In this document: one piece after another, positions 1 through 62,082 of the stretch
Layout: every line of letters starts with the position of its first letter
How positions within the stretch are numbered: position 1 is the first letter of the stretch
Assembly: GCF_002865545.1 (NCBI RefSeq)
Contig: NZ_CP025543.1
Location: 496,001 to 560,000, forward strand
Length of the DNA: 64,000 nt
Reading direction: 5' to 3'
From: Spiroplasma monobiae MQ-1
GTDB lineage: Bacteria; Bacillota_I; Bacilli_A; Mycoplasmatales; Mycoplasmataceae
Notes under the pieces: generated by a model
The model's database searches: none
What the model was told of the DNA's origin: nothing
Seen by the model: the letters and a program-made list of their open reading frames with translations, nothing else
Translations under genes and position numbers: made by a program

Positions 1-21
1 TAGATTTAAAATACTTTTCAT
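1..21 (-). CDS. 5' end of a secreted-protein gene cut by the window edge
   Basis: Only the first seven codons are in the window, reading Met-Lys-Ser-Ile-Leu-Asn-Leu. The ATG is supported by a GAAAGAAAGGA-type ribosome-binding stretch a few bases upstream and by the same G-rich leader that precedes the secreted-protein genes at 211-990 and 60823-61614. The start resembles the Lys-rich beginning of a signal peptide. I infer a third member of that family or regulon; the sequence here is too short to prove it. Confidence 0.6.
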
Positions 22-24
22 ATC

Positions 25-89
25 TTTCCTTTCTTTCAACTACCCACCCTACCAACCTTAATTGATATATTCCTATATTTTTAATTATA
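25..89 (-). promoter_or_regulatory. G-rich leader element and -10 box, copy 1
   Basis: On the minus strand this reads TATAAT (84-89), an AT-rich stretch, then AAGGTTGGTAGGGTGGGT and a GAAAGAAAGGA ribosome-binding site just before the ATG at 21. The core is the same in three places in the window (here, 1001-1067 and 61622-61686). The distance from the -10 box to the G-rich core is about 24-26 nt each time, so the G-rich core should lie inside the 5' untranslated mRNA. Confidence 0.7.
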
Positions 90-210: not shown

Positions 211-990
211 TTAATCACAACAAATATATGTTTTTACATAAACAAAGTTAACTTGGAAAGATCCAGTTACACCTCTACTTTTACCCTCTTCTGTTGCATA
301 AAAAACTGTTGATAATGCAATTCTTGTACCAGGCTCCATAAAAATTAAATCTCTTTGTGTAAAAGGTGTTCCATCAGAAATTTTTGTTGGTAATTTTGGT
401 GCTCCTAAAGTTTCTGGGTGAACAAATGTTGGATACTCTTTATAATCACCAATTCCTTTTCAAATACTTCATCATAATTGTCAAATAATTTCTTCAACTG
501 TTCAAACTAGATAAACTAATTCATTTGTAAATCTATTTTCAAAAATTGCTAAATCTAATGATTGATGTGTAATTGTGTAAATATAGTACATTTCTCCATA
601 GATACCTTTTTCAATACCTGATTCAGTTGGAGCTATTCTAACATTAACATATGTTTTTCCAGCGCCATATTGCCCCATTACATCATCATCATTTAATTCC
701 CTATTTTCATTTATGTTAAAAGCTGATAAAACTTCAACATCATCAATACCTACATCAATACCAGATGCTTTCTTAATCATGCTTGCAGCATTTCCTCTTG
801 CTGAAATATAAAAATTATATAAAACATCTTGATAATAGTTATAAGTACGCTCTATTTTAGTTGCATTTAAAGCACTTATATCATACTCTTGATTAACTCT
901 GTTGTTTACATTTATTATAGTTTGACTTAATGGCAAAATTGCTGATGAAGTCAAAGATAACGATCCAATTAAACTTAATAATTTTAGCAT
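211..990 (-). CDS. Secreted protein of unknown function, G-rich-leader family (259 aa)
   Basis: I do not recognise this family. Residues 1-23 form a signal peptide (Met-Leu-Lys-Leu-Leu start, then a hydrophobic core) without a lipobox Cys, so the product is probably exported. Several in-frame TGA codons read as Trp. It is homologous to the protein at 60823-61614: both have Asp-Asp-Asp, then a Gly-Ala-x-Lys element, an Ile-x-Pro-Thr-Glu-x-Gly stretch and a Tyr-x-Tyr-x-Thr-Ile-x-His motif, at similar length (259 and 263 aa). The protein ends Ile-Cys-Cys-Asp, unusual for a mollicute exported protein. The start follows a GAAAGAAAGGA ribosome-binding site. The gene is apparently a single-gene transcript, with its own -10 box upstream and terminator at 147-181. 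Confidence 0.8.
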
Positions 991-1000
991 AGTATTAAGT

Positions 1001-1067
1001 TTTCCTTTCTTTCAACTACCCACCCTACCAACCTTAATTGATAAATATATTTATATATTTAATTATA
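1001..1067 (-). promoter_or_regulatory. G-rich leader element and -10 box, copy 2
   Basis: This is the promoter and leader of the 211-990 gene. On the minus strand, TATAAT (1062-1067) is followed by the conserved core GGTTGGTAGGGTGGGT and the GAAAGAAAGGA ribosome-binding site. Copies 1 and 2 also share the AT-rich flank directly upstream of the core. The pattern GG-N2-GG-N2-GGG-N-GGG could fold as a two-tetrad G-quadruplex; that folding is an inference. Confidence 0.75.
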
Positions 1068-1172: not shown

Positions 1173-3275
1173 TTATTGTTTCTTTACTAAATCAATTTCA
1201 GAAATCATTAACTTAGTTTTATTTATGTTGTATTTTAATTTTATATTAAAAATATGTACAGTATTTCCATCACTTACAGTGTATTCAAAATCATTTATTG
1301 AATTTTTCTTTGTAGAAACACTTATGTTTTTAAATAAATTATTTGCTTCTTGAGTTAAAGCATTAATTTCTTCATTATCTTTATCTGCTCATTGTTTGAA
1401 AACAGAATTACTTTGTTCAACTATTTCTTTTGATTGTTCTAAGAATTTAAAGAATTGTTCTAAAACAGACCCTTCTTTCAATGACCCATCTTCGTTATAA
1501 CCTAAAACTTCAAACATTTTAGAAGGGTTTTCTAATGCTCTTTTTACTGTATCATCTTTTCTTAATCGTTTAATTAATTCACCAATTTCATTAAATTCAA
1601 TTTTTGACTTATTAGTTTTAGTAAAAGAATTAGAGAAGTCATTTATTAATTCTTGTACGCTTTTGTTGGTAATGTATTCATCTCCTCTTGGTTTTGGTTG
1701 ATTGAATCTACTTTCTCCATCACTTGATTTTATTGTGAAATTTGATTCTTTTGAACTGATTTTATTCATAGGAGTTTTTAATATATTCATTATTGAGAAA
1801 CCAAGTTTATCATTATTGTTGTTTCATAAATAACCCATTCAATCATTTTTGAATTTTTCTGTATCTTTATTATTTTTGATTGCATCTATAAATGGTTTTA
1901 TTGTATCTGGCAGCATTGATGTAAATCCGAATAGTAAACTATTTACTAAACCAATCATTTTGCCACCATTTTCATTGCCAAGACCAGAATTCACATAACT
2001 TCTTACTAGTGAATTAACATATATTTTACCTAATACAAATGTTGCATCAATATAGTCTTGTCCCATTTGTTTTCTAAGTAATTTTTGAACTACATCCATT
2101 AATCCGTCATTTACTTTTTCTGTGAAATCTTGTCTTCTTACAAAATTTGTTGAATTTGTAGCTAATAATATACCAACAAAGTTTTTAAATGAAACACCTG
2201 TTGTATCATTATTTACCATGAATTCTAGTTTTCTAAATGTTTCTTTAACATCAATTGAGTTAGAACTAAAATTTGCAGTTCTCTTTTCTTCAATTTTAGC
2301 TAAAGTAAGTAAACCTGATGTCATATCATCATAGCTAAATTGATCAATATAAGCTAACAACGTTCTTACAAATCTAATAACTTCAGCAATTGAATCTATA
2401 TTTTCTTCTAAATTTACATTTAATTCAGCTTCTTTATCCATTAATTTTTTAATATTGTCTGCTAAAGTTGTAGTTGCTTCATCATAGTTATCTTCAATCT
2501 GTCCTTTATTTTCTGATTCTAATCATCAATCAGAACTTCTGTTATTAATCATTTTATCCACAGCATTTGAAAGACCAATCATACTTGATTTTAAAGCTGT
2601 TTGGTAATCCATATCTTTATAAACATCAGTGCTGAAAGCATTTTCAAGTAATTGTAATTTATCTTCAGATAAAACTTTACCTAATGTTTCTAGTATTTCT
2701 GGAGAAATAATTTGTTCAATCATTTCTGGGTTACTTACAACAAGACCCAACAATCCTTGTAGAGAACTTGGATCAGATAACATTTCAAGAATTGTTGGCA
2801 CAGTTTCTTTAAGTGTTTTTACAATACCTTCGTTTGGAGCGCTAGGATCTATTACATAATCTTGATAAACATTATCAGATAACTTAACATCTCCTGATAA
2901 TATTCCACTCACATTGAAATATTTTTTAGCAATATCACTGTACTTGTCCTTTTCAAAAGCACCTTCTGAGGAGTGAAAATCATTTAGACCTAAATCTTTT
3001 AGAGTCTTATTCTTAACTTGGCTTTCAAACATAAATTTAGAACTAAAGTGAGTTTCTTTGTCTGAAAGTGTATTCTGATTAATATAAAGTGTTTTTGCAA
3101 ATTGAGACATTAACTTAGAAATAGTGTCTTGTCTTTCGGCAGATTCAAAGTTATTTTCCTTTGAAGGCTCTTGCGTATCTTTATCTGTATTTTTTTTACC
3201 GCCACAAGCAGCAACACTACCAACAGTAGAAACCGACATTGTAACTGCTCCTAATAAACTTAATAATTTTTTCAT
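1173..3275 (-). CDS. MOLPALP-type lipoprotein 1 (700 aa)
   Basis: A surface lipoprotein of the mollicute paralogous lipoprotein (MOLPALP) type. The N-terminus is Met-Lys-Lys-Leu-Leu with a hydrophobic core and a lipobox ending at Cys24 (Ser-Val-Ala-Ala-Cys), so it should be diacylated and anchored to the outer face of the membrane. The rest is hydrophilic and rich in Asn, Asp, Lys and Ser; the function is unknown. The frame runs through TGA codons at about 1389, 1824, 1839, 2523 and 2526, all read as Trp, so the shorter frames seen under the standard code belong to one gene. It is a tandem paralogue of 3831-5918, with a segment of about 140 nt identical at DNA level (1852-1991). The stop is TAA at 1173. 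I saw only a weak hairpin downstream. Confidence 0.85.
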
Positions 3276-3830: not shown

Positions 3831-5918
3831 TTATTTAACCAAGCTAATTTCTGAAACTAATAACTTAGTTTTATTTTTATTATATTTTAATTTTATATTA
3901 AATATTTTTTTTATATTCCCGTCAGTTATATTATATTCAAAGTCATTTATTGAATTTCTTTTAATTGAAACTTTAATAGATTTAAACAATTCCTCAGCTT
4001 CAATTTCCAAATCACTAATTCTTTTATTTTCTTCGTCTATTCATATAGATAATAATTCACCAGTCTTTTCATTTAATTCTTTAGTTTCATTTAAAAATTT
4101 AAAGAATTGTTCTAAAACCGAACCATCTTTTAGTGATCCATCTTCGTTGTATCCGAAAATAAATAACATTTCTGATGGATTATTTAAAGCTTTTTGTAGA
4201 GTGTCATCCCTTTTTAATCTTGCAATTAATTCAGCTATTTCATCAAAATTTACTTTTGAACTACTTATTGTTGAAAAAGATGATGAAAACTCATCCACAA
4301 TTTCTTTAATTGTTTTTTTGGTTAAGAATTCTGCCCCTCTAGATTTTGGTTGGTTAAATCGATTACCATCGTTATACTTTTTGAAAGAAAATTTAGATGA
4401 TTCTAAACTAATATCCTTGATTGGTTTTGTTAATAAGTTACGTAATGAAAAACCAAGTTTTTCATTACTATTATTTCATAAATAACCCATTCAATCATTT
4501 TTAAATTTTTCTGTATCTTTATTATTTTTGATTGCATCTATAAATGGTTTTATTGTATCTGGCAGCATTGATGTAAATCCGAATAGTAAACTATTTACTA
4601 AACCAATCATTTTGCCACCATTTTCATTGCCAAGACCAGAATTTAAGAAACTTCTTATTACTGTATTAAAGTATAATTTTCCTAAAATTGAAGCATCTAT
4701 ATAGTCTGCTCCCATTGCTTTTCTCGCTATTTTTTGAACTACATCAACAAGTCCACCGTTAACATTTTCATTAAAGTCGATATCTTTAACGAAATTTGTT
4801 GAATTTGTTGAAAATAATGCTCCAACAAAATTTTTAAGAACCACACCTGTTGTATCATTATTTACCATGAATTCTAGTTTTCTAAATGTTTCTTTAACAT
4901 CGATTGAGTTAGAACTAAAATTTAAAGTTCTTTTTTCTTCAATTTTAGCTAAAGTAAGTAGTTCAGAAGTCATTTCTTCATAACTAAATTGATCTAAGTA
5001 AGCTAATAATGTTCTTGCAAACCTTATAACTTCAGCAATAGCATCAATATCTTCAATTAAATCTAGTTTTAATTCAGCTTCTTTATCCATTAATTTTTTA
5101 ATGTTATCTGCCAAACTTTTTGTTGCTTCATCATAATTTTCATCAATCATTGACTTACTATCTGAGTCTAATCATCATTTAGAATCAGTTCTATTAACAA
5201 ATTTATCCAATGCATTTGAAAGACCGATCACACTTGAATCTAAAGCAGTTTGATAATCCATCTCTTTATAAACATCAGAAGAAAAAGCATTCTCAAGTAA
5301 TTGTAATTTTTCTGTTGTTAATACTTTACCTAAAGTTTGTATTATTTCTGGAGAAATAATTTGTTCAATCATTCCAGGGTTGCTAGCAACAATGCCCAAT
5401 AATCCTTGTAATGAACTTGGGTCTGAAAACATTCCAAGAATAGTTGGTAGAGTCGTTTTAATAGTTTCCACTATACCCTCTTCTTTTACGGACGGATCAA
5501 GTACAGAATCTTGATAAATTTCATCAGATATTTTTAAATCACTTGAAAGTATTTGATTTACATCAAAATATTTTTTAGCAACATCTCGAAATTTATAATT
5601 ATCTTCGACTTCTTCAGAAATATCAAAATCAGTTAGTCCTAAATTTTTTAAGTATTCTCCATTTACTTTATTTTCCATCATATACTTAGAACTGAAGTGT
5701 GTTTCTTTATCTGATAATTCTGTTTGATTTATATAAAGAGTTTTTGCATACTGAGACATCAACTTAGAAATAGTGTCTTGTCTTTCCACAGACTCAAAAT
5801 CAATTTCTTTTGATGGTTGTGTTGGGTCGTTTGTAGGTTTATTGCCACAAGCTGCAACACTACCCAAAGTAGAAGCAGAAATTGTTACTGCCCCCAATAA
5901 ACTTAATAATTTTTTCAT
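3831..5918 (-). CDS. MOLPALP-type lipoprotein 2 (695 aa)
   Basis: Paralogue of 1173-3275 along its whole length. It has a signal peptide with lipobox Cys24 (Ser-Val-Ala-Ala-Cys), the shared Arg-Gln-Asp-Thr-Ile-Ser-Lys-Leu-Met-Ser segment near residue 40, and the shared Gly-Asn-Glu-Asn-Gly-Gly-Lys-Met-Ile-Gly segment in the middle. TGA codons at about 4041, 4476, 4491, 5172 and 5175 are read as Trp. It should be a lipid-anchored surface protein of unknown role. The gene starts 28 nt after the stop of the SGNH lipoprotein and is probably cotranscribed with it and the membrane protein at 7082-8017. The segment 4504-4643 is base-for-base identical to lipoprotein 1, while the flanks diverge. Confidence 0.85.
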
Positions 5919-5945: not shown

Positions 5946-7082
5946 TTACTTATTTATTCATTTATCTTCAATATCTTTAAAGATGAATTTCATCGCTAAT
6001 TCATGTCCAACTTTGGTTGGGTGAACAAAATCTAGAAAAAAGTAATTATCTTCTTTTCCTTCATTACCCTTTTTTATAATTGCTTTGACTTCCAAATTTT
6101 TTGGATCAATACCAGATGATAAATCTGGCATAGATGAATCACAAAGTTCATCTATTACATTATTGTTTGAATTTTCTTTTTTAAATTCATTTAAAATTTC
6201 TTTAAATCTACCGTATAGATCGAAATGTAATATTGAATCACCATAAACTTTATTTGCCTTGTTTATGATTTTAGTTATTTCACAATCAAAATCATTACCT
6301 AGCATTTTGATTATGTCCTTGTCTGATTTTGACTTATTTTTGTATTTTGGTATCAAAGTCATATCGGGAGGTGTTAAAAATACTATTTTTTTAGCTCCAT
6401 TGTTTAATAGTGTATACAATGAGTTTTTAATATTTTTTAATGCATCTTGCATTATGTCAAATCTTTTGTTAACATCTTTAACATTATCAATGATAGCAAA
6501 CATATCATTACCCCCAATTTCAACAACAAATAAATCATTTTCATGAATTATTTGTTGTTGCACAAGGGCCTGAGATTGCTTATAGATACCTGTATTACCC
6601 ATCAACAATGCACCAAGCCCGCCTTGATCATAGGCTGTAGCTCCTCCAATTGAATAATTTTTACCTCAAACTTTTTTATTTTCCCTATCTATATCCTCTG
6701 CATGAACTAAATTTGATGAACTAAATTCTTTATCTGTAAAATTTAATTTTCTATTAATTAATGTTACAGTTGTTGGTCCATTGCTAAATCCACCATTATA
6801 CATTCCAGATAATTTAACATCAACTTTTAATTCATCTTTTGCTATCATTACAAGTCCACCTTGATCACTTAGTGAATCACCAAGAGTAAAAAAATTTGAA
6901 AAACCCATATGTTTACTTTTATCGTCACTTGTATCTTTTGCATTTCTTGTATCAAAATTTTTTCCAATGTTTTTATCAAAGTTAAAATTAATTTCATCAG
7001 GATTTGGAGTACACGACAAAACAGCAAGTGATGAAGTTGTTATAAAACTTAAAGACGCAACTATTGCTAAAATATTTTTCAT
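5946..7082 (-). CDS. SGNH/GDSL-family lipid-anchored esterase or lipase (378 aa)
   Basis: A predicted surface serine hydrolase acting on ester or lipid substrates. A signal peptide ends in a lipobox with Cys24. The SGNH blocks are in order: Phe-Thr-Leu-Gly-Asp-Ser (catalytic Ser70), Gly-Gly-Asn-Asp (190-193) and the C-terminal Asp-x-x-His pair (Asp351, His354). TGA codons at about 5958 and 6666 read as Trp. Its ATG overlaps the TAA of the upstream membrane protein by one base (TAATG), which suggests translational coupling. Lipoprotein 2 follows 28 nt downstream. Mollicutes scavenge host lipids, so a phospholipase or lysophospholipase role is plausible, but the substrate cannot be read from the sequence. 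Confidence 0.85.
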
Positions 7083-54481: not shown

Positions 54482-57112
54482 AACTCCCTTTTTAACGTTT
54501 TGTAATCTTGATTCTAATTCAGGGTCTTTTTTATTTGGTTTTCTATTACCATTATTTGATTTGTCTCAGTTATTTAAAACTGGTTCCATATCTTCAACTC
54601 TTGATTTACCATCATTTACTCAAACGTATTTTGATTCATAATCTGGATCATTTAATTTGTCTAAGTTATATTCTAACTCTCTTTCAAATAATCCACTTCT
54701 TACAATTCCTTTGTCTTTTCTTATTTTAGCTGTTTCAGTTTTTTTAGCTTTTGCAACAGCATGTTTATCAGCTGCAATAGCTGCATATCTTGGTTGACGG
54801 TTTTGGAATTCACTTCTGAAGAATTTTCATCAAACAAAGTATCCAACACCAGATAATAATAAAACTAATAACACTGCCAATAAGATAATTAATCATAACG
54901 GCATTGTTCCAGGAATAAATACTGTAAGTTTTGAATTAATTGAGTTAATTGTAACTCCAGGTCTAGCTGATTGTGCACTAACAGTTATATCAAGTGCTTC
55001 ACCAGATTTTCCTCCAGTAATAGCTAACTTACCTGTTGTATTATCATATGAATAAGTTGCACTAGAAATTTCTGTACCTTCTTCATAAGTTGTCAATGGA
55101 AGATTGACAGATACTGAACTAAACATATTATAGTTTTCAACTTGGAAAGTTTTTACTTGCCCTTCTTTAATTCTTAAAGTAGATCCAAGACCTTTAACTG
55201 AAATCGTGCTGCTAACAACATTTAAACTATCTTTTACATCAAAGTCATATCCACTACCAGTAAATCCAATTCTTTGCTTTCCAGTTTTTGTTGCTTTTAG
55301 TTTAACTGTTGTATCATTTCCATTTGATGTAGGAGTTCCAACAATTTCATATCCACCAGTTACTTTAAAATCACTTGGCACATTTTTCATACCAAGTAAT
55401 TGGTAATCAAATTCTTCACCTTCAAATATATCTCCTTCAATTCCTTGAGTTAGGAACTGACCAGTAACAACAGTGTTACCAATTTGATCAAATGATATTT
55501 TAAAGTTTAATGATTGATTTTGAACTGAACTTTCTAATAGAAGTCCTTCTTTTGGTTTTGCAACAGCTTCAATTATTTTTTGATCTGATAAGTCAATTGA
55601 GTTTGATCTTACAACTTTTAAATTATTTCCTAATTGTCTATCAATATCATCATATATTTCAGCTAATTTATTCGGATCAGTAATAACTTCTTTTTGAACT
55701 TTAACTCTAGTTGAGATTGTTGCTCCATCTTTTGAAGTAAAGATTGAAGAATCTGAATTTGATACTATAACACTCCCTGAATTTCTAACAAATTTAGTAT
55801 TAATATCTAATTCTATTTCTTTGTGTCATCCATTAAAATCATTACTTGTTATTAATCCATTAAATGATTTAGCATCAGGAAGAATTTGTAAAGCTTCATT
55901 TAAGTTTAAGTTCCCATTTGAACTTTCAACTAATGCAAATGCTGTTTCTTTTCTGGCACCAGCTGCATTTATGTTATTTGTTAAAGCCTTTTGAACTCCA
56001 TTAGTTATTTCAACATAACTTCTTGAGTAACCAATTTTACTTCTATCATCTTTTACAAAGTAAGTTCCATTTTTTCCTTCATATGAAGTTGAAAATGAAA
56101 TATCAGCAGAAATTAAAGTTTCTGTTAATTTTAATTCTTCATCTCCTGAAATTCCACTATATATTTGTTTACCTTGTTCTGAAGTTATTGTTATTGAATC
56201 TCCATTAACGGTCATATCAGTAATATTTTTCACTCCATTAACTGTTTTAATAGGCTCACCTAGGTTTGCTTCGGTCAAGTTTCTATCAAGTACTTTATTT
56301 TCAATTTTATAAATCTTGTTTCCAATAGCAACAATAATGTTTTCACCATCCAATTCACAAGCCGCAGTTAGACCACTTATTTTCATATCAATAGTAGTTA
56401 TACCAATAGTTGCAATTAAATTAGTTCCTCCTGTAACTGAGTTTTGAATTAAGTACTAGCTTCCCCCAGAATATGTAGAAACTTTTTTAGGTTTTTCTCC
56501 AGCATCTAAATTTGATGTTTGCAAGTTAGATTTAACTGTTTGAGGTGTTCCATTTAAATTAATTATGTTTGCATAAGCATTGTTAGACATAATGTACATT
56601 TTAGAAGTAGCATCAAAAAATCCAGAGTCGAATTTTCCATTACTTAAACTAGTCCCAGCAACACTTTCTATTATTGGATCATTATAAAGATAAGTTTCTT
56701 TTATACTTTCTTTGGTTAGTGAAAAACTTTTTAAAATAGAATTACTTGGACTATAATATGATCCAAAATACAATACATCATTAACTACAGCAACTTCTGT
56801 ATAGTTTGATTGTAAACCAGTAATTAAATCATGTTTTTGTAAATTAGCATTTTCATCTAATAAATAGATTGAAATTGTAGATTTACTTGAAACAATAAAG
56901 TATTCAAAAGCCTTATCATCATAATCAGACTCCCAAACCGCAAAACCTTCTCCAGATTTCACAATATTTTGTAGATAATCATCACTTGCTCAAGCATTAC
57001 CTGATGCAAAGTTCAATAATTCTTGTCTTTGATTAATACTAAATGCAGAAACACTTAAAGTAACAGGTACAGATATACTTAATGTTCCTAAAATTGTTAA
57101 TAATTTTTTCAT
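54473..57112 (-). pseudogene. Large type I surface protein gene with in-frame TAG (879 codons)
   Basis: A single frame from the ATG at 57112 to the TAG at 54473 is interrupted once, by TAG at 56456-56458 (codon 219). The frame is open on both sides and keeps the same composition, so the break looks like a point mutation. A signal peptide (1-24) is followed by a repeat-rich external part with propeller-like elements in the first half and Ig-like strands later. A membrane segment lies at about 739-762, then a basic cytosolic tail of about 115 residues. The layout matches the neighbouring 57136-59910 gene. Alternatives: a truncated 218-aa secreted product, re-initiation at an internal codon after GGAGGA near 56425, readthrough, or an error in the sequence. 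Function unknown; adhesion is a guess. Confidence 0.6.
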
Positions 57113-57135: not shown

Positions 57136-59910
57136 TTATTTTTTGTTTTTTTCTTCTCTACGTTTAGCTTGTGCAATTTTTGCAGCTTCTTTACCAACAG
57201 CAGATTTATAGAAACGTTTACGTGAAATGAATCACATTGACATAATTACAAGTACAATGATTGAAATTCCACCAAACGCTAATATTGGTGTAACTCATCT
57301 AGGCATTGAACTTGGTGTTTTTAAACCATAAACTGTTATTTCAATAGTGATGTAGTTTCATTGTCCTTCTTTTCTAGATTCAAAATCAGACAAAGTATTT
57401 GCAGAAGTAAACGCTCTATCAAATAATCTAACAGTCATTTTTGATGAGTTAGCTTTTAAGTCATATCTCATATCACTTATTAAAGCAATTCCCAATCCTG
57501 GATCTAACATTTTATGTTTGTTAATACGGTTTTGAATTTGAATTAGGTTAGCACCTAATTCATTACTTGTTGTTAATCCAATTCCGTTAAATTGAAGTTT
57601 TTCAACTTCTTTTGCTTTTGCATCTAAATCCAATTTATTTTCTGGTGAGAATTTTTCTGCTTCTGAACCAAAAACGTTATCGTCTAATTTCATTTTAACT
57701 TTTAAAGTTTTTAATGTTATATAACCATTTTCAGAATCATTTTCATTCATGAAGAAGAAACTATTATCAATTCCGCCCTTAGGTTTAATTCTAATGTTAT
57801 CTAATGTGTAGTTTCCATCTGCATCCGGTTCTGCATTAATTGCAAACCCTCAGCCATCGCCTTCTCATTCCTGACCACCTAAGAATCAGTCATTAATTTC
57901 TCATTGACTATTTGAAAGTTCTTTTCACATAACATTTTTTTCAAATCCTTTTACAGATTCTAATGAATTTTGAATTTGATTATAAACTCATCCAACAACA
58001 CTATTAAAATCATCATAACCTTCAAGAACATAACCTTCTTGTCAAGGTGAAATTTCGCTTAAGTTATATCTATTTGTGTAATTTGTATTAACAGCTTGCA
58101 TTTTAGAATTTCTAAATCTTGATGTATTTGAACTATCAATATTTTTAATTTCTACTCTACCACTTTCGTTAATTTCACCAAATTTATCATCTGGAATCAA
58201 GTACTTATCTACTATATTAATTTCATAGTCAACACCAATTTCTGAATCAGCAAACATAGCAGAGACTTTCTCATCACTAACAACATTTCCACCAACCGAT
58301 GAAATTGCTTTGTCAAGTTCAAATATAAGATCTTTTTCATACTCTTCACTTCCATTTAAAGGAGTTGCTCTTGTATAAGTATAAGGTTGAGTAACCATAT
58401 TTCTAAGATCGTATTTTTCAAAAACCCTTGAGTTGAAAACCCCATTTCCATTAACCTCATTAAATGAATATTTTAGATAACCCTCTGAATATACAACTGA
58501 GTTCGGTAAAATTCCGTAATTAGTTGATACTACAAGTTCATCCAAACTTGAATCCAAGAATAATATTTTTCTAGCTTCACCATTAGTAAAGTTTCTTGGA
58601 TCTTTGTATGAATATTGGTAAATAGAGTTAGGTGTTGTAACAACTAAATTGTAATTATTATTAACATCATCTTTATATGAATAAAAACCATTTACATTGT
58701 TATCTTCATAATATACTTCACCATTCATAGTTTGACTAAATGATTGTGGTTGTAAATCAAAAAGCTTCTCCATTTCATTTCTTTCATTTACAAAGTAAAT
58801 AGCTGATTTTGTGTTTTGTGAAGTACCCTCACTTGCTGCAATAATGCTATATTGTGTATTTGCATAATCCAATGTGTGTTCTGTGTTTGTAATAAAGTTT
58901 ATTGATTGATCATCTCTTTTATTAGAAAGAATATTATCAGTCATAGTTAGATCAGAATTCAAACTAAATGAATGAAACTTATTATCTTCTCTATTAGTAA
59001 AATTTAAAGTAACTTTATTATCTCCCCCCATTGAAAAACTTGAATTTGTAGGATTATAAATATTACCAAATTCATATGTAGAACGTTTAACTAAATCTGA
59101 GGAATTTTTTATTATATCACCATTTTTTGAATTATCCTTATCTCCAGATATTATAGCTTTACTTAAGTCAAATCTATCAACAGCATAATTCAAACCGCCA
59201 TCTTTATGATAATAATTATAGAATACATAGATACTGTTATTTTGGTCAGAATTTGAAATTGATCTTGTTGGTGAATAAACTTTTAAAATTTTATCTCCGT
59301 TTTTATAATTTGGGTTTAAATCCAAGTTTAAAACTACTTCAGAAGCTGCATCAGGACTAATATCAATTACTTTAATTTTTCCTACATTACCAATAACATC
59401 TTTAGTTGCATAACTCATATATTTTGTTTTAGTACCATTTAAAGTATTGCTTTGTTTATAAGTAGACATAAAAGAAGCTGCAGCAGTATTTGCTCCAAGT
59501 GAACCATTGAAATCTAAATCAGTTACAACATTTGAAAATCCCTTTTCAGGATCATTTTTAATGATAGATCCACTTACATTATCGTTAGTAACGTTATAAA
59601 TAATATCGTTTTTAGTATCTCCATCACTATATTTGTAAGTTGCTACAATATTTCTAGCATCAGTATTTCCTATTTCTGCTTGTGCAGCAGTTTGAATACC
59701 ATAATTTGTATTTCTTTGAGCATTTAATTTTAATTCTTCATTACCTGGTGCTAAACCTGTAAATAAGTTAAAAACATCACTATTAACACCTTCTAATTTA
59801 GCTGCTGCTCTAGTTCCAAAAATATCTAAAACACCAGTTTGTTCCGCCATTAAAGCAACTGGTTGAGCTGATATAGTGATTCCACCTAGTAAAGTTAATA
59901 AAGTTTTCAT
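57136..59910 (-). CDS. Large type I surface protein, unknown function (924 aa)
   Basis: Signal peptide at 1-22 (Met-Lys-Thr-Leu-Leu-Thr-Leu-Leu-Gly start, no lipobox Cys), then about 850 residues outside, rich in Asn, Ser, Asp and Tyr with many predicted beta strands. One membrane segment follows (873-896), and a basic tail of about 28 residues. No known domain was recognised. The first 622 codons contain no TGA, while the C-terminal third has many Trp codons, so composition changes along the gene. The start follows GGGG. It lies 23 nt upstream of the similarly built gene at 54473-57112, and the two are probably cotranscribed. Confidence 0.8.
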
Positions 59911-60822: not shown

Positions 60823-61614
60823 TTATCTAAAATTAATTCTTACATTCATTCTAGCTGATCCGTAAATACCTTTATTTATACCAGCTTGGTTTCTTGTTGA
60901 GAATAAAGTGAAATTTAAACTCTCATTATTAGCTATTGCTTTGTCAATATCTTCTTGTGTTGCAAGTCTGTATATATTCAATTCTTCATCAAATACATAG
61001 AAAGGACTGTGATCAATTCCTTCTGTTGCGAAATATAGAGCATTGTATCTGCTACGAGCTGAAATACGATAAGAAATAATAGTTGTTGTGAAAAATCAAA
61101 CAAATTCCAAATCATTTTCTGCTTCTTTAGAAACTTCAACCAATCATTCAAAATTATTGTAAGTGTTTAAATCACCTGGATGGTGATGAATTGTTGAGTA
61201 AACATAAGCTTCTCCAACAACATTGTTCATCAATCCTAACTCTGTTGGCACTATTTTTAATAGTCAAGTTTCTTTAGAAGCTCCATTTTTTCCACTTATA
61301 TCATCATCATTCGCTTCTCTACCATCCATTACATTTATCATGAATTCAACTTGAATTCAATTAGTTTGAATAGAAATATTTTGTTCTTTCATTAAAATTC
61401 TTTGTATTGAAGTTGTTGCAACACCACTTTTATAGTATTCTAAATCAAAAAGAAAATACCCTAATTGTTGAGTTTCACTATAACCATTTAAAGTGGAAAG
61501 ATCAACTTTAGTTTCTTGATTTTCTTTTATAGTTTCTATTGCCACCTCACTAATTGGCAAAACTGCTGAGGTTGTTAAACTTAGTGAAGCAATTAAACTT
61601 AATAATTTTATCAC
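60823..61614 (-). CDS. Secreted protein of unknown function, G-rich-leader family (263 aa)
   Basis: Paralogue of the protein at 211-990. It has the same signal peptide style (Met-Ile-Lys-Leu-Leu-Ser-Leu-Ile-Ala-Ser), no lipobox Cys, then a Ser-Thr-Leu-Asn segment, the Asn-Asp-Asp-Asp-Ile-Ser-Gly-Lys-Asn-Gly-Ala-Ser-Lys element, Ile-Val-Pro-Thr-Glu-Leu-Gly and Tyr-Val-Tyr-Ser-Thr-Ile-His-His. The C-terminal region shares Asn-Lys-Gly-Ile-Tyr-Gly-like turns. TGA codons from 61357 downstream read as Trp. It carries the same G-rich leader and ribosome-binding site, although the genes are 60 kb apart, which suggests common control. Confidence 0.8.
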
Positions 61615-61621
61615 TTTGGTT

Positions 61622-61686
61622 TTTCCTTTCTTTCAACTACCCACCCTACCAACCTTGTAGTTACTTTTATCATAAAACTAATTATG
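61622..61686 (-). promoter_or_regulatory. G-rich leader element and -10 box, copy 3
   Basis: The core (AAGGTTGGTAGGGTGGGT, then GTTGAAAGAAAGGAAA) is identical to copies 1 and 2 over 35 nt (61622-61656), while the upstream flank is unrelated. The -10 box is CATAAT (61681-61686), 24 nt from the core. The identity ends abruptly at the core, which shows that the core itself is conserved and not only the surroundings. Confidence 0.75.
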
Positions 61687-61732: not shown

Positions 61733-61756
61733 AGCCCAGAGCGAGCTCTGGACTAA
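61733..61756 (-). terminator. Strong minus-strand terminator with no gene upstream of it
   Basis: CCAGAG pairs with CTCTGG around CGAG, with extra outer pairs, and is followed on the minus strand by GCT8. It must end a transcript that starts in the gene-free stretch to its right. Confidence 0.75.
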
Positions 61757-62082
61757 AACTATTTAAGGGTAAAATAATTTTAAATTTAACAACTTGAATT
61801 GTTCTAGGTACTTATTTGCTTTTTTCAAAGCTCTTTACAAGTAGCATTAACTTGTAGTTTCCTGATCCCGCCCTTACACCCTTTAATTTCTTTTAATAAA
61901 GAAATTAACTGGAAACTTGGAGATTTTCAACTGAATTGATAAGTTGATAAAATCAATACCTTTTAAACTAATTCATTTTTTATTCCCTATTTGCTATTTT
62001 TGAAATACGTTATTTTTCGTAAGTTGAATAACAACATCTTACATTTTTATTATCAATTATTTTTAAAAACTATCAACAAAAA
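61733..62082 (-). ncRNA. Candidate structured non-coding RNA B (about 350 nt)
   Basis: No reading frame, but dense folding. Stems: TACAAGT/ACTTGTA (61836-61856), GCTTT/AAAGC (61818-61831), nested AGTTTCC/GGAAACT (61856-61862 with 61911-61917) around TTAATTTC/GAAATTAA (61883-61908), GATTTTCAACT with AGTTGA-T-AAAATC (61922-61954), and GTAAGTTG/CAAC-AT-CTTAC (62019-62042). A G-rich single strand (GGGTGTAAGGGCGGGATCAGG on minus broken as GGGTGTAAGG and GCGGGATCAGG) lies inside the nested stem. A minus-strand TATAAT is at 62089-62094 and the terminator at 61733-61756. Size fits a housekeeping RNA, but I see no RNase P, tmRNA or SRP signature. Promoter position and strand are inferred. Confidence 0.4.

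Follow-up and report, generated by a model that had tools for sequence, protein, structure and literature searches.

A G-rich element made of four short guanine tracts, set close 5' of a long Shine-Dalgarno sequence in the leaders of genes for secreted proteins, is real, conserved and, as far as we have searched, previously undescribed. We lean, by a small measure, towards a conserved 5'-leader module whose transcript folds into a two-tetrad RNA quadruplex that sets the translation initiation of freely secreted proteins, a reading drawn from sequence comparison. The conserved guanines and drifting loops suggest an RNA switch or booster shared by exported proteins. Bacterial mRNA-leader quadruplexes are known mainly from engineered constructs and their evolutionary use is debated; tract-specific conservation across several genera, at a fixed ribosome-binding site and in one gene class, is evidence from nature that a small set of reporters could test. 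Insect-associated Mollicutes have few regulators and a poor catalogue of secreted factors; for their freely secreted proteins the element would supply both a regulatory handle and a sequence tag.

The element in the window and its genome

The window, by which we mean the whole 64,000-nt stretch of DNA analyzed (26.5% GC), carries three identical copies of a 35-nt core, AAGGTTGGTAGGGTGGGTAGTTGAAAGAAAGGAAA, on the minus strand. The preliminary description had placed them at 25-59, 1001-1035 and 61622-61656, in front of exported-protein genes, and exact matching confirms the copies just as signal-peptide products behind all three confirm the setting. Each core comprises a G-tract part, GGTTGGTAGGGTGGG, followed after 5 nt by the Shine-Dalgarno sequence GAAAGAAAGG, and the G-rich minus strand is the coding strand of the genes 3' of all three copies. 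The features are as follows.

43..57 (minus): copy A, G-tract element GGTTGGTAGGGTGGG, exact match
28..37 (minus): copy A, Shine-Dalgarno GAAAGAAAGG, 5 nt 3' of the G-tracts
25..59 (minus): copy A, identical 35-nt core
1..21 (minus): start of the copy A gene for a 476-aa signal-peptide protein, ATG at 21-19, the gene extending beyond the window
1019..1033 (minus): copy B, G-tract element GGTTGGTAGGGTGGG, exact match
1004..1013 (minus): copy B, Shine-Dalgarno GAAAGAAAGG
1001..1035 (minus): copy B, identical 35-nt core
211..990 (minus): copy B gene for a 259-aa secreted protein (MLKLLSLIGSLSLTSSA...)
61640..61654 (minus): copy C, G-tract element GGTTGGTAGGGTGGG, exact match
61625..61634 (minus): copy C, Shine-Dalgarno GAAAGAAAGG
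61622..61656 (minus): copy C, identical 35-nt core
60823..61614 (minus): copy C gene for a 263-aa secreted protein with a GTG start (M/VIKLLSLIASLSLTTSA...)

When up to three mismatches to GGTTGGTAGGGTGGGT are allowed, the window yields exactly three matches, versus 0.05 expected in shuffles. The 259-aa protein of copy B has no match in Pfam or NCBIfam, and its orthologue in a related genome (G007) carries the same leader. The 263-aa protein of copy C has no Pfam match; in the leaders of its relatives in G007 and G015 the loops are changed and the tracts kept. The 892-kb genome uses code 4 (TGA = Trp) and contains MOLPALP and spiralin-like lipoprotein signals, which together with the low GC content mark it as that of a Spiroplasma/Mesoplasma-type mollicute. 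It has four exact copies of the core and two variants. The fourth exact copy (410209+) and the variants, AGGTGGTAGGGTGGG at ~723522- and AGGGTGTTGGGTGGG at 563884-, each lie 5' of a signal-peptide gene for an MLKLLSLIG-type protein. Another genome match with two mismatches, GGTTGATAGGTTGGGT, was rejected as a further element, being ribosomal RNA.

Two MOLPALP-type lipoprotein genes and a gene for a GDSL lipase-like lipoprotein (1173-3275, 3831-5918 and 5946-7082) adjoin copy B, all without a G-rich leader. A GC-richer stretch (GGGTGTAAGGGCGGGATCAGG...) lies 5' of copy C at 61740-61930 on the minus strand, closing with a strong hairpin that resembles a terminator (CCAGAGCTCGCTCTGG). It has no Rfam or tRNA match and is possibly an unknown small RNA.

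Position, genes and distribution

The coding strand carries the element in every case, about 5 nt 5' of the Shine-Dalgarno sequence. Over the 46 g1 sites that have a gene, GGGNGGG and the end of the Shine-Dalgarno are 15.1 ± 0.9 nt apart; the Shine-Dalgarno and the start codon are separated by a more variable 9.3 ± 3.0. The element lies 20-45 nt before the start codon, with its end 20-31 nt before it. The core had been described as lying between a -10 box and the ribosome-binding site; the second landmark holds but the first is not confirmed, as TATAAT-like sites 5' of the element occur no more often than in shuffled AT-rich sequence and lie at varying distances from the element. In the related Mesoplasma florum, 5' UTRs average 58 nt and promoters consist of a bare extended -10 (PMC7745072). 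With 5' UTRs of such length, transcription would normally take in a sequence located 20-45 nt before the start, and the present element is probably part of the transcript. The locked spacing to the Shine-Dalgarno and the coding-strand orientation favor a role in the mRNA leader, with action on translation initiation or mRNA stability.

The same spacing and orientation bear on the idea of a DNA-level element, either a transcription-factor site or a quadruplex of the non-template strand that affects transcription. A non-template quadruplex did raise transcription by ~30% in vitro (PMC11087576). However, the constant coding-strand orientation and the tie to the ribosome-binding site, not to the -10, speak against it, and we regard action at the DNA level as quite improbable.

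Signal-peptide-like N termini are found in 56 of the 58 proteins encoded downstream, and a lipobox in none of the 58. More than a dozen unrelated families are represented among the mature proteins, for example GH18 chitinase-like, GH68 levansucrase/invertase and DUF285 proteins. GH18 provides a natural control in this genus: in carriers, the secreted GH18 enzymes have the leader, whereas GH18 lipoproteins are without it. Similarly, at sites anchored on the Shine-Dalgarno, lipoprotein and cytosolic genes with an identical GAAAGAAAGG have no G-tracts. Anchoring on the Shine-Dalgarno sequence and on GH18 genes was used to counter the ascertainment bias of collecting sites by an exact pattern, and in these surveys the element is absent from lipoprotein genes and not universal among secreted proteins. 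The leader is absent from the secreted GH18 orthologues of G065, G076 and G082, and the element from two signal-peptide genes of the window (56456-57112 and 57136-59910). Three copies (G015:698518, G019:862528 and G019:207039) may be relics, as the signal-peptide gene expected after them is not intact or not there. The element marks genes for freely secreted proteins without the lipoprotein cysteine, a rule that is not universal.

The genus pattern GGNNGGNNGGGNGGG occurs at 36 places in 9 of the 20 genomes of the genus, and its reversed control at none. On an rpoB tree, eight of the nine carriers fall in one clade of nine species (support 100/100) and the ninth, G015, is distant; the distribution of the element takes a minimum of three changes. 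Beyond these, two genomes of another genus (G065 and G076) have, at the same place, GGTAGGG-TTTT/TCT/CTTT/AATT-GGG-T/C-GGG, G078 has GGTTGGGTGGGCGGG there, and G033 and G064 carry the leader in the GGNNGGNNGGGNGGG form. Across 298 genomes of the order, the combination of GGGNGGG and Shine-Dalgarno is concentrated in the family of the window, and outside the family its frequency is close to that of the reversed control, with the exception of a repeat in G052. A named prokaryote collection, which may lack close relatives of the window, gave 24 scattered matches in unrelated phyla, about the chance rate, and viral contigs gave two scattered matches to the element pattern. The two outcomes that the preliminary description had named as adverse, random placement and absence from relatives, are not what is found: the element sits 5' of signal-peptide-like genes and is conserved in 9 of the 20 genus genomes and in other genera.

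The G052 repeat, from another family of the order, is present in ten copies of CCTTTCGG(T/C)AAAGTTAATTCCCCACCC, whose spacer differs from that of the leader element. The copies form five inverted pairs ~2.27 kb apart, which look like the ends of a mobile element.

G-tracts, loops and the proposed quadruplex

The typical order of the element is GG-NN-GG-NN-GGG-N-GGG. In orthologous or closely related pairs of leaders, identity is 87% in the 5' tracts and 100% in the six G of GGGNGGG. The latter figure is partly built in because the sites were collected with GGGNGGG, a constraint that did not apply to the 5' half. Identity is 45% in loops 1 and 2, versus 44% in the 20-nt flank. Between genera, loop lengths and letters vary and the four G-tracts persist. 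Four GG-tracts with loops of 1-7 nt are present at 47 of 62 sites, including all three copies of the window; when the 14 nt 5' of GGGNGGG are shuffled, only 5.7 ± 2.1 of the 62 sites (maximum 12) have four tracts. This pattern of kept tracts and drifting loops supports an RNA quadruplex as the best structural reading, with the folding inferred from the sequences.

Other features fit less simply. The remaining 15 of the 62 sites have three tracts only or a loop longer than 7 nt; in ten of these there are three GGG tracts, usually accompanied by an isolated G. Where four tracts are lacking, GGGNGGG and a 5' half rich in G are nevertheless retained. The third loop, an exception to the free loops, is T in 97%. 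In addition, both halves of GGGNGGG retain their third G, although GG would suffice for two tetrads. Neither the T loop nor the extra G is expected from a plain two-tetrad quadruplex. In the ViennaRNA quadruplex model, the minimum-energy fold contains a quadruplex in 31 of 59 leaders. The preliminary description held that the spacing GG-N2-GG-N2-GGG-N-GGG permits a quadruplex; the kept tracts, drifting loops and differing loop lengths bear this out, whereas the T loop and the 15 sites without four such tracts do not. The missing tracts, the T loop, the extra G and the 31 of 59 folds leave room for a protein that reads G runs or for non-canonical quadruplexes with vacancies.

The first of these, a linear element read by an RNA-binding protein specific for G runs, or by a C-rich small RNA, would control translation at the leader with no quadruplex. 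It accounts for the near invariance of GGGTGGG, loop T included, and for the retention of GGGNGGG and the G-rich 5' half at sites without four tracts. It does not account for the free drift of loops 1 and 2 or for the change in loop lengths between genera. As to the small RNA, the 16-mer searched in the genome on either strand with up to three mismatches matches only leaders, rRNA and two chance sites; an antisense small RNA with extended complementarity was rejected, the complementary site being absent from the genome. We consider linear reading of the G runs unlikely, with some weight left to it.

The second would be a natural metabolite-sensing quadruplex. Given the three-G tracts of GGGNGGG and the shorter other tracts (GG-GG-GGG-GGG, GG-GGG-GGG-GGG, GGG-G-GGG-GGG), one or two guanine positions would stay vacant in a three-tetrad fold. 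Free GMP, GTP or ppGpp might fill them, so that host-directed enzymes would be secreted in response to nucleotide or nutrient status, a speculation to which we give very little credence.

The two-tetrad RNA quadruplex that we favor would be compact and, bordering the initiating 30S subunit on its 5' side, would set the rate of translation initiation, acting as a gate that needs unfolding; alternatively, it would raise initiation as a barrier or standby structure. Protection of the mRNA 5' end may be a further role. The folding, the action on translation and the direction of that action are all inferred. In earlier work on such constructs (PMC11087576 and work cited there), a 5'-UTR RNA quadruplex far from the Shine-Dalgarno raised translation about fivefold in E. 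coli and cell-free systems, and one ~20 nt before the start lowered it. At 20-31 nt before the start, the element falls between the raising and lowering cases, so that the sign of its effect is not predictable from position. The translation switch put forward earlier thus gains a favored site of action, the leader, through the spacing locked to the Shine-Dalgarno, but not a direction.

A quadruplex in the leader could also serve as a stabilizer of the 5' end of the mRNA, blocking, together with the strong Shine-Dalgarno, the 5'-to-3' exonuclease RNase J and so lengthening the life of secretory mRNAs. The element is near the expected transcript 5' end and coupled to a strong Shine-Dalgarno, as this explanation would have it, although the spacing to the Shine-Dalgarno is tighter than stability alone would require. 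RNase J has a role in Firmicutes and Mollicutes, and E. coli is not known to have it, which weakens the counter-evidence from E. coli on mRNA life. That evidence is that a 5'-UTR RNA quadruplex did not extend mRNA life in E. coli (PMC11087576). Taken together, stabilization as the main function appears distinctly unlikely.

Comparison with known systems and other leaders

The nearest likeness to a quadruplex in the leader is with synthetic E. coli 5'-UTR quadruplexes, where (Lee et al. 2024, PMC11087576; Holder and Hartig, cited there) leader G-tracts near the ribosome-binding site raise or lower translation depending on placement. Those elements are engineered, three-tetrad and placed at will, whereas the present ones are natural, mostly capable of two tetrads and locked ~5 nt from the Shine-Dalgarno, with conservation that extends over species and genera. 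Riboswitches and other Rfam 5'-leader families are similar in having a conserved, structured-looking leader and a functionally coherent set of genes, but the leader element here is without helices, Rfam match or known ligand. Indeed, at gathering score the Rfam covariance models left the leader unmatched and found only a tRNA in the sequences scanned. The element was not found described in the literature on Spiroplasma or Mycoplasma and quadruplexes. Leader RNA quadruplexes as such are known in principle. What is new, as far as searched, is a natural module that is found family-wide, is locked to the Shine-Dalgarno and serves one class of secreted proteins.

The pilE and vlsE quadruplexes of antigenic variation (PMC4412290) likewise place a G-rich sequence near genes for exposed proteins, but they are DNA recombination signals 5' of one expressed locus, whereas the leader element is at many unrelated genes. 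The preliminary description had raised a pilE-like signal for swapping surface or secreted genes, and the exact copies within one genome and the secreted, variable products behind them agree with it. We nevertheless set it aside as the least probable of the explanations: every member has the element at its ribosome-binding site in one orientation, the flanks are diverged (44% even between orthologues), the downstream families are non-homologous enzymes, and the pilE arrangement of a single expressed locus, homologous silent copies and a G4 5' of the promoter is not seen, with no silent-copy array found.

Two other leaders were noticed. A second conserved leader, AAGAAAGGATGTTATA...ATTGAATTAAAGAATG...GTGATGTAAC, with no Rfam match at gathering score, is present at G000:C1:592465-592597 (L123) and in ~15 relatives of the genus, occurring once per genome in ~16 of the 20 genus genomes. 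At G015:C1:237558-237690 (L115), the leader of a short MKKLLSIFSS gene is also G-rich but of another build, GGGTTGGATTGTGGAGGGAAAGAAAGG, and abuts the Shine-Dalgarno.
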